DNA of 64,000 nucleotides, from contig JAADJD010000055.1 in assembly GCA_013150955.1 (NCBI GenBank), positions 116,343 through 180,342 on the forward strand, in the 5' to 3' direction. Shown here in pieces: positions 4,395-64,000 of this stretch (position 1 is the first letter of the stretch; each line of letters begins with the position of its first letter). The position numbers and the translations under genes are program-made. The notes below the pieces were generated by a model, which had not been told where the DNA came from, searched no databases, and saw only the letters and a list, made by a program, of their open reading frames with translations. This stretch comes from Calditrichota bacterium. GTDB taxonomy: Bacteria; Calditrichota; Calditrichia; RBG-13-44-9; J042.

Positions 4395-4564
4395 AACCCA
4401 GATTATGCATTAGAACCACGAATGGCACGAATTAACACAAATAAAAACAATAAAATCCATTGGATTAGATCTGGATGAAAATATGTTTCGGAGTTTATTC
4501 GCGATTTTGTAGATATGGTTTGGTTTCATTCGTGTGATTCGCGGATCAATGCATCATTCGGGTT
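4395..4564 (+). repeat. Dispersed intergenic inverted-repeat element, copy A
   Basis: This 170-bp copy defines the family consensus. The left end reads AACCCAGATTATGCAT, then ACGAATGGCACGAATTAAC. The right end is the imperfect complement (CATTCGTGTGATTCGCGG...ATGCATCATTCGGGTT). The interior contains ATCTGGATGAAAATATGTT and GAGTTTATTCGCGATTTTGT, shared with the other copies. It sits between the convergent radical SAM and popT genes, and a stray half-copy (TTACGAATTACACGAATT) precedes it at 4370-4388. The rest of the 4312-4658 gap shows nothing else. Confidence 0.85.
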
Positions 4565-10817: not shown

Positions 10818-11076
10818 AGCATTCCTTTCCGACGGCGCAATTTACAGCACAATCCCGTTTGGTGCAACGTCAGGTTCTTGCTCCAAATAAAAGCCTTTTC
10901 CCGTTTAGAACCATCGGGTTCTTCAAACAATACGCATCCGTACCCGATTTCGTCTGTAAAACCATTTGCTTTCACCCACTTTATACCCGACCATCGCGGT
11001 TACTCGACCTGTCATTTTTTATATTCGTCCAATTACCTGTCTTGCGCCAATTCACAAACCGCGGGTTCAGGATTTC
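10818..11076. other. Intergenic region upstream of the M16 gene
   Basis: This holds the upstream region of the M16-ald-deacetylase-merR operon. No coding sequence, promoter or hairpin stands out. Repeat copy B begins at its right edge. Confidence 0.4.
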
Positions 11077-11243
11077 ATCCCAGATTATGCATCACCACGA
11101 ATCACACGAATGGAAACAAATAAAATCAAAAAAATGCATTGGATTAATTCTGGATGAAAATGTGTTCTGGAGTTTATTCATGGTTTTGTGGACATTTTTG
11201 GGTTCCATTCGCGTGATTCGCGGTCTCGTGCATGATTTGAGTT
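11077..11243 (+). repeat. Dispersed intergenic element, copy B
   Basis: About 167 bp in the same orientation as copy A: left end CCCAGATTATGCATC followed by ACGAATCACACGAATGGAA, interior TTCTGGATGAAAATGTGTTC and GGAGTTTATTC, right end CATTCGCGTGATTCGCGGT with a terminal ATGATTTGAGTT. It lies between the M16 operon start and the pnp terminator. Confidence 0.8.
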
Positions 11244-11312
11244 CATTGCGGACCCATCAAATTCCCCATTCATTTTTTTCTGCACCGGTCGAGCACGCCA
11301 AATCTGGAGAAT

Positions 11313-34052: not shown

Positions 34053-34221
34053 AACCAAGATTATGCAATAGCCTACGAATGACATGAATGAACACCAATG
34101 AAAATAATAAAATGCACTTAATTCTATCTGGATGAAAATGTTTTCCCGGATATATTCGCTATTTTGGTGATATGATTCGAATTCATTCGTGTGATTCGTG
34201 GTTTAACGCTTTATTTGGGTT
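34053..34221 (+). repeat. Dispersed intergenic element, copy D
   Basis: A 169-bp copy: left end AACCAAGATTATGCAATAG then CTACGAATGACATGAATGAA; interior CTATCTGGATGAAAATGTT and GGATATATTCGCTATTTT; right end ATTCATTCGTGTGATTCGTGG, ending TTTATTTGGGTT. It lies between the starts of the Sua5-like gene and the end of the MurF-like gene. Confidence 0.85.
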
Positions 34222-35810: not shown

Positions 35811-35912
35811 AACCCGGATTTTGCACAAGCCGCCGAATTCCACGAATTATCACGAATAGAAATAATCCAAATTATTTATTAGACCGCGAATGAACACAAA
35901 TAAAAACAAATT
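35811..35912 (+). repeat. Partial dispersed element, copy E1
   Basis: Contains AACCCGGATTTTGCACAAG, then CCACGAATTATCACGAATAG, and a second set of ends ATTAGACCGCGAATGAACACAAATAAAAACAA. It is missing the interior and right part, and is followed at 35988 by a complete copy in the opposite orientation. Confidence 0.65.
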
Positions 35913-35987
35913 CCTGGAAGCCGACATTTTACTAAGCAAAACTTACCGATACCTGAACAAATCATTTTGCTTGTAACGGTTGATTTG

Positions 35988-36156
35988 AACCCAAATGATG
36001 CTTTAAACCGTGAATCACGCGAATGAATCCGAAAAATATTAACAAAATCGTTAATATCTCCCGGAACACATTTTCATCCAGATACAATCCAATGTATTTT
36101 ATTTGTTTTATTTGTGTTAATTCGTGTAATTCGTAGGCTAATACATAATCTGGGTT
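35988..36156 (-). repeat. Dispersed intergenic element, copy E2 (reverse)
   Basis: A complete 169-bp copy in reverse: AACCCAAATGATGCTTTAAACCG, GAATCACGCGAATGAA; interior CCGGAACACATTTTCATCCAGAT; AATTCGTGTAATTCGTAGGC and the terminal ATACATAATCTGGGTT. It is followed at 36157-36204 by an extra right-end half (TGTCATTCGCGGTCGAATGCATC). Confidence 0.85.
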
Positions 36157-36204
36157 TATTATTTGTGTTCGTGTCATTCGCGGTCGAATGCATCATCCGG
36201 GTTA
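36157..36204 (-). repeat. Extra half element appended to copy E2
   Basis: A 48-bp solitary terminal half (TTCGTGTCATTCGCGGTC, then ATGCATCATCCGGGTT) abuts copy E2. The same arrangement (complete element plus half) occurs at copy F. Confidence 0.6.
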
Positions 36205-44037: not shown

Positions 44038-44470
44038 TTACCCTCCTAATTTTTTGTACAGATGATTTATTTGGGTGCAAAGAACCGGAATGGCCATATT
44101 CTTCCGGGAAACGGAAATGCACCGTCAACGGGCCTGCTGAACGGAAATCTCCGCCAGCCCGTCAACTGCACCATTCGACATGAATGGAAATACCCGGAAC
44201 TCTTCCTGAGGAATGGGACCAACGCCCGACACGATTCCTGAAAAAACCGACGGGACCAGTGGTCAACGTCTGCCGGTTAAAAAATGTAAGTGAACCTAAA
44301 AAAAGCGGGCAAAACTTCAATCGAATAACGCCAAATATTATAAAACCCGGCAAATTTTGTCAATAGGTTCGCCGCAAAAAAATAAATTTTTTCGAATGTA
44401 TTTGAAACACAGGGGACTTGTGAGGGATCAACCCGGCATCGAACACCCTGGATGATTCCAATGGAACCCC
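44038..44470. other. Intergenic upstream of the lamin-tail gene
   Basis: This gap probably holds the minus-strand promoter for the lamin-tail gene. An imperfect hairpin (ACGGGC near 44128 with GCCCGT near 44158, enclosing a CGGA/TCCG stem) is present but has no T-tract, so it is not called. Element copy F begins at its right edge. Confidence 0.35.
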
Positions 44471-44632
44471 AACCCAGCATCAAACCGCAAATCACGCGAA
44501 TGAAACCAAAAATGTTAACAAATTCGCGAATAATAGCCGGAACACATTTTCATCCAGACCTCGTCAAATGGATTTTATTGTTTTTATTCGTTTTAATTCG
44601 TGTAATTCGTAGGCTATTGCATAATTTAAGTT
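44471..44632 (-). repeat. Dispersed intergenic element, copy F (reverse)
   Basis: About 162 bp in reverse orientation: AACCCAGCATCAAACCGC, AATCACGCGAATGAAACC; interior TAGCCGGAACACATTTTCAT; then TAATTCGTGTAATTCGTAGGC and terminal TGCATAATTTAAGTT. It lies in the lamin-tail/lutA divergent gap and could carry part of either promoter region. Confidence 0.8.
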
Positions 44633-44748: not shown

Positions 44749-45519
44749 ATGGCCCAAACGGTACACCTGTTCATTCCCTGCTTTGTAAACGCTTTTTTTC
44801 CAACTGTGGGCATTGCCTGTGTGGAAATTCTGGAAAATCTGGGATACCGGGTGGTCTACTCAACCGATCAAACCTGTTGCGGACAACCGGCGTATAATTC
44901 CGGCTATGTGAAAGAGGCCAGATCGCTGGCAACCCGTGCCATCCAGCTGTTTGGGGTTGCTGATTACATTGTTGCACCCTCCGGCAGCTGCACCGCCATG
45001 TTAAAGCACTACTATGGCACCCTGCCCCTCACCCGGAAAGAGCGGCAGGATTGGGACCTCTGCAGAAACCGGTTCTACGAAATCACCCAGTTCATCACCC
45101 GTGTTGCCGGTGTAAATCACTGGAAGGGGACGTTCCCTCATTCGGTAACCTTTCACGACGCCTGCCACGCGCTCCGGGAACTGGGCATCCGGGATGAACC
45201 GCGACAGTTGCTAACCCGCATCCAGCGGCTGAAGCTGATTGAGATGCCCCATGCCGATCGGTGTTGCGGCTTTGGGGGAACGTTTTCTGTAAAATTCCCC
45301 GAATTGTCCACCGCCATCCTGGAAGCCAAAATCGCCAGCCTGAAACAAACCGGGGCGGAATTTGTCGTCAGCACAGATAGCAGCTGCTTAATGCACATTG
45401 CCGGGTACCTGAAGAAACACGGCGAATCCATAACGGCACTTCATCTGGTGGAGGTGTTGTGGCAGGCCTGGAAAAACGATGGGTCGCCGCCCATTCTTAA
45501 CGGAACCCACGCACCATGA
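44749..45519 (+). CDS. lutA: Lactate utilization protein LutA
   Basis: The 256-residue (Fe-S)-binding subunit has two CCG-type cysteine motifs (TDQTCCGQPAYNSGY and DRCCGFGGTFSVKFP) of the LutA/YkgE/GlcF family. LutABC oxidises L-lactate to pyruvate in the cytosol, feeding electrons to the respiratory chain. First gene of the lutABC set; lutB lies 226 bp downstream because a repeat element sits between them. Confidence 0.92.
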   Translation: MAQTVHLFIPCFVNAFFPTVGIACVEILENLGYRVVYSTDQTCCGQPAYNSGYVKEARSLATRAIQLFGVADYIVAPSGSCTAMLKHYYGTLPLTRKERQDWDLCRNRFYEITQFITRVAGVNHWKGTFPHSVTFHDACHALRELGIRDEPRQLLTRIQRLKLIEMPHADRCCGFGGTFSVKFPELSTAILEAKIASLKQTGAEFVVSTDSSCLMHIAGYLKKHGESITALHLVEVLWQAWKNDGSPPILNGTHAP

Positions 45520-45564: not shown

Positions 45565-45577
45565 GATGAAGACAAAT
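45565..45577. repeat. Direct repeat flanking element G, left copy
   Basis: GATGAAGACAAAT at 45565-45577 is exactly repeated at 45735-45747, immediately beyond the right end of element G. This looks like a 13-bp target-site duplication. The right copy includes the first two bases of the lutB start codon. Confidence 0.75.
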
Positions 45578-45734
45578 AATGGATTAAACCGCGAATTACG
45601 CGAATGAAACCAAAACACATCGACAAAATCACGAATATAACCCGAAATAAATTTTCACTCAAATCAGATCTAATGTATTTGATTATTTTTAGTTGTGTTA
45701 ATTCGTGCAATTCGTGGTTTAATGCATAATCTGG
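45578..45734 (-). repeat. Dispersed intergenic element, copy G, between lutA and lutB (reverse)
   Basis: 157 bp in reverse orientation: the left end is shortened (AATGGATTAAACCGCGAATTA...), the interior has CGAAATAAATTTTCACTC (a variant), and the right end has AATTCGTGCAATTCGTGG...ATGCATAATCTGGG. Both sides are bounded exactly by the 13-bp repeat GATGAAGACAAAT. It separates the two genes of what is normally one tight operon. Confidence 0.85.
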
Positions 45735-45745
45735 GATGAAGACAA

Positions 45746-47170
45746 ATGGACCATAATCCACTGACAAATCCAACAAGGAATGCCCCAGCATCCGGATTTA
45801 AACAGTGGGTGAGGTTGTACCTGCAGAATTCGCGGTATCGGGAAAACATTCGGCGGGCCACGGAGCATGCGCTGGAACAACGGCGCCTGGCGGTGGATGA
45901 AATACCGGACTGGGAAAGGCTGCGGCAGGAAGGCCACCGCAGGAAACAGCAGATTATTGACCACCTCCCAGAGCATTTAAATCAATTTATCGAAAATGCT
46001 CGCGCCAGAGGGATTGTGGTTTACCAGGCGCCTGATGCCCGGACGGCCAATCAGTTTGTAGAACAGATCGCCCGTCAACACGGGGTGCGGCGCATTGTGA
46101 AATCGAAATCCATGGTAACCGAGGAAATTGGCCTGAATGCCCATTTGCAACAGAACGGCCTGGAAGTTGTGGAGACGGATCTGGGAGAGTACATCGTTCA
46201 GCTGGCGGGAGAAACGCCGGTCCACCTGGTGGGGCCGGCACTGCACAAATCGCGGCAGGAGATTGGACAATTGTTTGCGGAAAAGCTGGGCGTAACCTAC
46301 ACCGAAGACCCGTCAGAATTAACCCGGCTGGCCCGGAACATTTTGCGGGAAAAATTTCTTACCGCAGACATGGGCATCACCGGGGCAAATTTTGGCATCG
46401 TGGATAGCGGCCGGGTGGTTGTGGTGGAAAACGAAGGCAACGCCCGGTTGTGCATGACCCTGCCCCGTATCCGGGTGGTCATCATGGGCATGGAACGGCT
46501 GATTCCCTCGGAAGCCGATCTACCCCTGTTTTTAACACTCCTGTGTCGCAGCGCCACCGGCCAGCGATTGACCAGCTACGTTTCCATCACCGGGGGCCCC
46601 GCATCGTCTCCATCCCCTGAAGGGCCGGAAAAGGTGTATTACGTGGTGGTAGACAATGGCCGCTCCCGCCTGTTGCAGGATCCGCATCTAAAAAAGGCGC
46701 TTTACTGCATCCGCTGTGCCGCCTGTTACAACATCTGCCCCATCTACCAGACCATCGGGGGACATGCCTACGGCTGGGTCTACCAGGGTCCCATTGGTGC
46801 GGTAATTACCCCTGAATTGTCCGGTGATCAACGTGCAGACGATTTACCCTTTGCATCTACGCTGTGCGGAGCCTGCAGCGATATTTGCCCGGTGAAAATC
46901 CCCCTTCACCACCTTTTACTTTACCAGCGCCAGCGCATCGTTCAGCGCACATCCGGACCCCACAGCGAGAAACTTGGCTTTGCCCTCTTCGAAAAACTGG
47001 CGCGCCACTCCATGCTCTGGAATCGAATGATCCGGCTTCTGGGCAAAGTTCAACGGGTGTTTCCAGGGGAATTGCCGGTACCCGGATGGACCCACTCGCG
47101 CATCTTCCCGCGGGTGGAGTGGCCCACGTTTACCCAATGGTGGCAAAAACATAAACGGAAAACGCCATGA
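45746..47170 (+). CDS. lutB: Lactate utilization protein LutB
   Basis: The 474-residue protein is the iron-sulfur subunit of LutABC: an N-terminal DUF162-like domain (RIVKSKSMVTEEIGLN; ITGANFGIVDSGRVVVVENEGN) and two 4Fe-4S motifs near the C-terminus (CIRCAACYNICP; CGACSDICPVKIP). The ATG at 45746 overlaps the right direct-repeat copy next to element G. Its stop overlaps lutC as ATGA, showing translational coupling. Confidence 0.93.
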   Translation: MDHNPLTNPTRNAPASGFKQWVRLYLQNSRYRENIRRATEHALEQRRLAVDEIPDWERLRQEGHRRKQQIIDHLPEHLNQFIENARARGIVVYQAPDARTANQFVEQIARQHGVRRIVKSKSMVTEEIGLNAHLQQNGLEVVETDLGEYIVQLAGETPVHLVGPALHKSRQEIGQLFAEKLGVTYTEDPSELTRLARNILREKFLTADMGITGANFGIVDSGRVVVVENEGNARLCMTLPRIRVVIMGMERLIPSEADLPLFLTLLCRSATGQRLTSYVSITGGPASSPSPEGPEKVYYVVVDNGRSRLLQDPHLKKALYCIRCAACYNICPIYQTIGGHAYGWVYQGPIGAVITPELSGDQRADDLPFASTLCGACSDICPVKIPLHHLLLYQRQRIVQRTSGPHSEKLGFALFEKLARHSMLWNRMIRLLGKVQRVFPGELPVPGWTHSRIFPRVEWPTFTQWWQKHKRKTP

Positions 47171-47766
47171 CCTCGCCCACCATCGAATTGTTCAAAAAGC
47201 GATTTACCGAGTCCGGCGGCAGGCTATTTATGCCCACGCGGCAGGATGTACCGACCATCCTGAAGACCATCCAGAACCACGAGCGCGCCAGGCGCATTTT
47301 AATCGAAGAGCCGGTGTTACGGATATTTCCCCTGAACACCACCCCCTTTCCCGGGGCATCTACAGAAATTTTGAGTTTTGGAGATCGGAAACACTCAACC
47401 CGATCGGCGCATCTGGAACGGCTCCGGGATATAGACATGGCCATTAGCACGGTGGACGGCCTGGTCGCCGAAACCGGAAGCATCCTGATGGTTCATCGGA
47501 ATCACCCGGGACAATGGCATGTCCTGTTACCACCGGCTGTGGTTTTTCTGGCATCCCCGCATCAACTGATCGGGGATCTGGAAGCCCTTTTCGCGCGATT
47601 ATCGCGGGAACTGGAATCGCTGGAGGACGGTTACCACCTCATCACCGGCCCCAGCAAAACGGCGGATATTGAAAAGCAGCTGGTGATCGGCATGCATGGC
47701 CCCCGTTCTGTCTACCTGCTGTTGCTCTCTGACGCACCCTCCCCCGAACGGGACCCAACCGCCTGA
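47167..47766 (+). CDS. lutC: Lactate utilization protein LutC
   Basis: The 199-residue DUF162 (LUD-domain) protein has SAHLERLRDIDMAISTVDGLVAETGSILM and the closing LITGPSKTADIEKQLVIGMHGPRSVYLLLL. It is the third subunit of the lactate oxidation complex. Its first codon overlaps the lutB stop. It converges with a gene pair of unknown function. Confidence 0.9.
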   Translation: MTSPTIELFKKRFTESGGRLFMPTRQDVPTILKTIQNHERARRILIEEPVLRIFPLNTTPFPGASTEILSFGDRKHSTRSAHLERLRDIDMAISTVDGLVAETGSILMVHRNHPGQWHVLLPPAVVFLASPHQLIGDLEALFARLSRELESLEDGYHLITGPSKTADIEKQLVIGMHGPRSVYLLLLSDAPSPERDPTA

Positions 47767-63418: not shown

Positions 63419-63582
63419 AGCCCAAAATTTTCTTTAGCCTACGAATCACACGAATTAAAACGAATAATAACAATAAAATACATTAATTGTATCAGAATTA
63501 AAATATGTTCCAGGGTTTATTCGCGATTTTATTGATATTGGGTTCATTCGCGTGATTCGTGGTTTGACGCATTATTTGGCAT
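63419..63582 (+). repeat. Dispersed intergenic element, copy H
   Basis: 164 bp: left end AGCCCAAAATTTTCTTTAG (degenerate) then CTACGAATCACACGAATTAA; interior ATATGTTCCAGGGTTTATT and CGCGATTTTATTGATATT; right end TTCATTCGCGTGATTCGTGG and CATTATTTGGCAT. It lies directly downstream of the suf operon. Confidence 0.8.
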
Positions 63583-63590
63583 AAAGCCTA

Positions 63591-63636
63591 CGCCTACCTG
63601 TGCCTACTGCATACTGCCAACTGCTTACTGACCTGT
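63591..63636 (+). repeat. ACTGCNA heptamer array, unit 1
   Basis: CTACCTGTGC followed by CTACTGCATACTGCCAACTG and TTACTG: three to four tandem ACTGCNA units. The same lead-in recurs at 63734 and 63784. Confidence 0.75.
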
Positions 63637-63700
63637 AGCCCGACTCTCCAGAGTCGGTAGGCCTCCCGCAAAGCGGGAGGACTTTTCAACTCACCGCATC
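63632..63700 (+). repeat. REP-like palindromic repeat, copy 1
   Basis: CTGTAGCC, then the perfect palindrome CCGACTCTCCAGAGTCGG (63640-63657), GTAGG, the perfect palindrome CCTCCCGCAAAGCGGGAGG (63662-63680) and the constant tail ACTTTTCAACTCACCGCATC. The same module recurs at 63931-64000 with CCCCGCTTTGCGGGG as the second palindrome. Confidence 0.85.
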
Positions 63701-63830: not shown

Positions 63831-64000
63831 CCCCGATTCTTCGCGTCGTTAGCCACACTTTGTGGGGGGGGGGAGCTCGCTATCGCTCGCACCGGCTCTG
63901 GAGAGCCGGGCTACAATTCGCTCCCACCGGCTGTAGCCCGACTCTCCAGAGTCGGTAGTCACCCCGCTTTGCGGGGAGGGACTTTTCAACTCACCACATC
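63831..64000 (+). repeat. REP-like cluster with inverted and direct units, truncated by the window end
   Basis: Contains a degenerate unit (63831-63850), CCGGCTCTGGAGAGCCGGGCTACA (63892-63914, the reverse complement of a direct unit), then CTGTAGCCCG with the perfect palindrome CCGACTCTCCAGAGTCGG (63938-63955), CCCCGCTTTGCGGGG (63962-63976) and ACTTTTCAACTCACCACATC to the end. An inverted unit faces a direct one, as in REP doublets. No RAYT-type transposase is in the window. Confidence 0.8.

Follow-up and report, generated by a model that had tools for sequence, protein, structure and literature searches.

The closest described relatives of the element discussed here belong to the IS1380 family, the family of ISEcp1, whose members generate target-site duplications of 4 or 5 bp (PMC4133298). 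ISPsp9 duplicates 5 bp of its target (PMC4133298), and TATGA has been reported as the duplication of ISEcp1 (PMC2887853). Type I MITEs, which have their tips in common with a resident insertion sequence, provide a further comparison, among them MITEPye1 of Paracoccus yeei, a small intergenic element with inverted repeats, a target-site duplication, a predicted long RNA hairpin and a partner, IS1182, with matching tips (PMC11578231). The Tn3-derived TIMEs are likewise short inverted-repeat elements that duplicate 5 bp (PMC4133298).

The repeats that we describe from a Calditrichota genome form a new MITE family of large copy number that is related to IS1380, and are thus of a kind already known. 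As in ISEcp1 and ISPsp9, the tips begin with CC(C) and the duplication is 5 bp long and AT-rich, but the copy on which we focus, copy G, carries no transposase gene and has an interior unrelated to the insertion sequence. All of the features listed above for MITEPye1 are shared, whereas the partner here is an IS1380 element and the copies number several hundred rather than one to three. The resemblance to TIMEs extends to the short inverted-repeat structure and the 5-bp duplication; the tip differs, and we saw no link to Tn3. In the literature searched, we found no papers on MITEs in Calditrichota, and a search of publications for the motif ATTCGTGTAATTCGTGG and similar motifs found none. What had been a set of loose repeats becomes a defined transposon family, with edges, a target rule and a likely transposase.

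Copy G lies in the window, by which we mean the whole 64,000-nucleotide stretch of DNA that was analyzed, itself part of a 4.07-Mb Calditrichota MAG (G000). There, lutA (44749–45519; Pfam CCG, PF02754), lutB (45746–47170; LUD_dom, Fer4_8 and LutB_C) and lutC (47167–47766; LUD_dom) follow one another on the forward strand, with lutB and lutC overlapping by 4 bp. Between lutA and lutB there are 226 bp, compared with 19 bp and no element in G001, a sister species of the same genus, which supports the view of the first-pass annotation that the element splits an operon of closely packed genes. The LutB proteins of the two genomes are 67% identical, and the spacers are not alignable base by base. 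No relative closer than G001 was found in a scan of genome contigs, the closest records being from Calditrichota. The annotation had also pointed to an exact pair of 13-mers, GATGAAGACAAAT, at 45565–45577 and 45735–45747, the right one overlapping the lutB ATG at 45746, and had read them as a target-site duplication around an element starting at 45578. The pair is real, and a search of both strands found no third occurrence in the window. The annotation was correct about the nature of the event, in that there is an insertion with a target-site duplication and the family is mobile, but its measurements were wrong: only 5 bp are duplicated, and the element begins at 45571.

These measures come from the family as a whole, which is dispersed and nearly palindromic, with copies on each strand of the window. 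A 782-kb sample of G000 contains 142 full-length copies, and the total for the genome, about 500–740, is only an estimate, because the sampled stretches were mostly centered on known copies. The modal length is 165 bp (exactly 165 in 41 of 133 tip pairs), and the copies have diverged, with a best-pair identity of at most 96% and a pairwise median of 79%. Only two of the 142 are centered within a long ORF, even though long ORFs cover approximately 78% of the sample. Alignment of 139 full copies places the edges at CCCAAAT... and ...CTGGG, each beside a 5-bp WTNAW; the logo reads WTNAW-CCCAAATAATGC on the left and GCATAATCTGGG-WTNAW on the right, and the flanks beyond are nearly flat. The 5-mers on the two sides of a copy are the same in 52 of the 139, compared with 11.9 ± 3.1 (maximum 23) after shuffling. 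A longer inverted repeat in place of a target-site duplication was considered and rejected, since the flanking 5-mers are inverted versions of each other in only three copies, fewer than the average of 13.0 obtained by shuffling. In keeping with a duplication of exactly 5 bp, 35 of the 53 copies with a target-site duplication show no match past the fifth base, about as chance predicts. An exact duplication is missing from 87 of the 139 copies, likely as a result of age, nesting and recombination.

Nested copies provide the family's own empty sites. A tip-to-tip distance of approximately 335 bp, equal to 165 + 165 + 5, recurs in the genome, as in the composites L092:8372–8705, L114:16794–17128, L105:2567–2901 and L113:3584–3918. 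When the inner copy and a single 5-mer are excised, the older family copy becomes continuous again across the junction in about ten nested examples, and the rejoined copies can be gapless, as in L092 (1–174 of 174) and L114 (1–172 of 174). The window holds a 336-bp composite (35866–36201; near 165 + 165 + 5) in which a copy at 35990–36156 apparently lies inside another, with a partial end from 35813, so that with this extra end unit the whole spans 389 bp (35813–36201); its nested reading rests on the other, excised composites of that size class. Matches on both strands identified copies A (4395–4562), C (34053–34219) and H (63420–63579) on the minus strand, and inspection of the flanks of copy B (11079–11241, minus strand) revealed ATGAA duplicated at 11242–11246 and 11074–11078 on that strand. 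Copy F (44467–44631, forward strand), identified from family matches and tip pairs, lies upstream of lutA, and another partial right end comes after it, reaching to about 44677. Stray end units of 45–55 bp often abut full copies of the MITE.

Aligned with the other 138 full copies and with the logo, copy G is a 165-bp element at 45571–45735 on the forward strand, GACAAATAATGG...CATAATCTGGG, where the family has CCCAAATAATGC...CTGGG. Its left edge is set at 45571 because the CAAAT at 45573–45577, which the annotation's boundary would place outside the element, is family consensus in register. Its left tip reads GAC instead of CCC. In the register of the family logo, the left duplication is ATGAA at 45566–45570, whose positions 1, 2, 4 and 5 fit WTNAW, and comparison of the 5-mers places the right ATGAA at 45736–45740. 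The left GATGAAGACAAAT therefore comprises 1 bp of flank, the duplication and the first 7 bp of the element (GACAAAT), and the right one comprises the element's last G, the duplication and 7 bp of flank that overlap the start of lutB. The terminal inverted repeats, delimited by both-strand matches and by the hairpin fold, occupy 45571–45607 (GACAAATAATGGATTAAACCGCGAATTACGCGAATGAAA) and, on the minus strand, 45699–45735 (CCCAGATTATGCATTAAACCACGAATTGCACGAATTAA). Folded as RNA, copy G is predicted to form a long hairpin (−41.4 kcal/mol, z −4.57), and the ORF list shows no transposase-sized ORF within it. The family-wide WTNAW duplication, found here in register, and the restored nested empty sites establish copy G as an insertion with a target-site duplication, as had been proposed.

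Contig C18 of the same genome carries, at its end, a transposase gene of the IS1380 family (NF033539, 219.4 bits against a cut-off of 180; PF13701, 139.8 against 34.7). This is the only large IS1380 fragment assembled in G000, and it ends at the contig edge. The tips of the element, CCCAGATTACGCAATAGAAC and CCCAGATTACGCATTAGAGA, both match the MITE tip: over its first 18 nt, the MITE right tip, CCCAGATTATGCATTAGA, agrees with the 3′ tip at 17 of 18 positions, and for the 5′ tip the agreement is 17 of 20. The first 86 bp from CCCAGATTACGCAATAGAAC recur identically at three more contig ends (C13, C21 and C27), each after TTTAA, and the 3′ end, ...TCTCTAATGCGTAATCTGGG, lies at four (C12, C35, C14 and C44), followed by TTAAA, TTTAA, ATAAT and TTTAA. 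The element is multi-copy, since contigs break inside it, and its tip-to-tip length of 1,459 bp is deduced from contig-end overlap. Allowing up to two mismatches, its tip occurs at 50 places, compared with none for a reversed-pattern control. The flanks in G000 are single sides only (TTTAA five times, TTAAA and ATAAT), the C18 copy being irregular, whereas a distantly related IS1380 element from elsewhere in the class, CCTAAATT...AATTTAGG of G017, has TTTAA on both flanks of one copy. In the C18 copy, the element's own tip is tandemly repeated over 8 bp (TTTAT-CCCAGATT-CCCAGATTACG; L123:1370–1410). The C18 transposase also changes frame near its 5′ part (L123:1070–1310), so that the N-terminal MEIKIDFTDKS... 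and the remainder are in different frames; either the copy is broken or it was misassembled.

Taken together, we consider it very probable that copy G is a MITE of a family moved in trans by the resident IS1380 transposase into 5-bp WTNAW targets. Mobilization in trans is the best explanation because of the tip match, the common flank motif, the TTTAA flanks in G017 and the published IS1380 duplications; we infer it from sequence rather than observe it, because the transposase gene, as assembled, has a broken reading frame near the 5′ end. In such a scheme, the transposase would recognize the MITE tips CCCARATWATGCATTARAMC and insert the element into a staggered 5-bp WTNAW, and repair would duplicate the target. 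Another enzyme, of Tn3 or IS5 type, for example, might move the family instead: TIMEs, as mentioned, also duplicate 5 bp, and IS5-family transposases are present in the genome, also at contig ends. That we think unlikely, given that the resident IS1380 element agrees with the MITE in both tip sequence and target motif. Tn3 tips are GGGG, and TIMEs have 38-bp inverted repeats starting with GGGG; the MITE tip begins with CCC and reads CCCARATWATGC, and on this basis the family was rejected as a Tn3-derived TIME. The copies without an exact flanking repeat could also suggest that the direct repeats are due to chance and that the family spreads or persists by a non-transpositional route. With 5-mer identity far above shuffles and nested empty sites closing without gaps, we give that idea practically no credence, and the annotation's statement that the family moves or moved holds. 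When autonomous long copies were sought among tip pairs 700–5000 bp apart, the 5-mers were equal no more often than by chance (15 of 225), and such copies were rejected.

With mobilization by the IS1380 transposase as the preferred reading, the 8 bases by which the match in copy G exceeds ATGAA call for separate treatment. The annotation had considered a chance 13-mer match at this place very unlikely; the match at the edges is indeed beyond chance, but this is carried by the 5-bp ATGAA in WTNAW register, and the extra 8 bp are marginal. When junctions are swapped, 0.85% of those with equal 5-mers extend at least 8 bp further, probably because many flanks hold element sequence or other copies. 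One could still propose a single 13-bp duplication, produced when a copy slightly truncated at its ends (45578–45734) inserted in an atypical manner, since the 13-mers match perfectly and three non-consensus bases of the left tip (GA for CC and G for C) agree with the right flank. This seems to us improbable: the family duplicates exactly 5 bp, ATGAA stands exactly at the WTNAW place and CAAAT is consensus in register. Nor is the length repeated elsewhere, in that among the 53 copies with a target-site duplication, a flanking match of at least 13 bp occurs only in copy G and in one nested copy, which adjoins another element's tip. The extra 8 bp are most likely due to chance or to local templated repair on a 5-bp duplication. 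CAAAT is present in the right flank as well, a match that may reflect chance or target choice, and it could have served as microhomology for a repair event in which the bases that open the element, CCCAAAT, were replaced by a copy of the flanking GACAAAT. The agreement of the non-consensus left-tip bases with the flank, and the occurrence of irregular tips such as that of the C18 IS1380 copy, fit this refinement, to which we nonetheless give somewhat less than even weight, as pure chance may suffice genome-wide at the frequency seen in swapped junctions.

The family is nearly absent from the sister species. With at most two mismatches and two tips per element, tips number 684 in G000, one in G001 and one in G007, and none were found in the other 37 genomes searched from the phylum. 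The family in G001 is confined to one locus (L101:2430–2760, contig C15) of 311–316 bp, which is bordered by ATAAT at each end and encloses a different repeat (CACAAAGACTCG...). A burst of several hundred copies, compared with a single locus in the sister species, offers a natural example of a MITE that expanded in connection with an element of the IS1380 family, to which ISEcp1 belongs. The MITE tip was not found among viral contigs, and a comparison of the window with Rfam returned tRNAs only.

The interior of the MITE does not look like the IS1380 element, so that loss of internal sequence from the latter would not by itself account for the MITE. Its subterminal sequence CCACGAATTACACGAATTAACACGAAT is found in 12 of 40 phylum genomes, outside G000 generally without CCC...GGG tips. 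In other Calditrichota, widespread intergenic inverted repeats of the form CACGAAT(T)ACACGAATT, for which we found no name, share the subterminal core of the MITE but generally lack the enclosing CCC...GGG tips of IS1380 type. Inverted repeats of the CACGAATTACACGAATTAACACGAA type that lack IS1380 tips are present in several copies in other Calditrichota, in G016 and G027 (e.g., L266 and L263) and on G012:C433, and these are possibly a separate unnamed repeat class. We tentatively suggest, while leaning slightly against it, that the MITE may be a chimera in which IS1380 tips of approximately 18 bp enclosed one of the unnamed CACGAATTACACGAATT hairpin repeats that are widespread in environmental bacteria and made it mobile, giving rise to hundreds of copies in one lineage and to a single locus in the sister species.

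Knowing the exact edges is important for interpreting the lut operon and also the remaining intergenic copies. If copy G is removed together with one 5-mer, the junction between lutA and lutB before insertion would have read ...GGATCGATGAAGACAAATGGACCATAATCC..., with ATGAA once. The target of copy G was the ATGAA just before the lutB start codon, and insertion there left the two genes at their present distance with a long hairpin between them, which may affect lut expression.

Fragments of IS5-type and other DDE transposases (PF01609) were observed in G000 at L135, L137, L138 and L139 (contigs C4, C25 and C14), several of them at contig ends, with tip-like sequences, CCCAGACGAAGCAAAAAACC, nearby. 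Within the window, an 84-bp direct repeat (210–293 and 309–392) overlaps one end of a minus-strand tRNA gene at 160–234, and a 45-bp direct repeat, CTGTAGCCCGACTCTCCAGAGTCGG, is present at 63633–63677 and 63931–63975.
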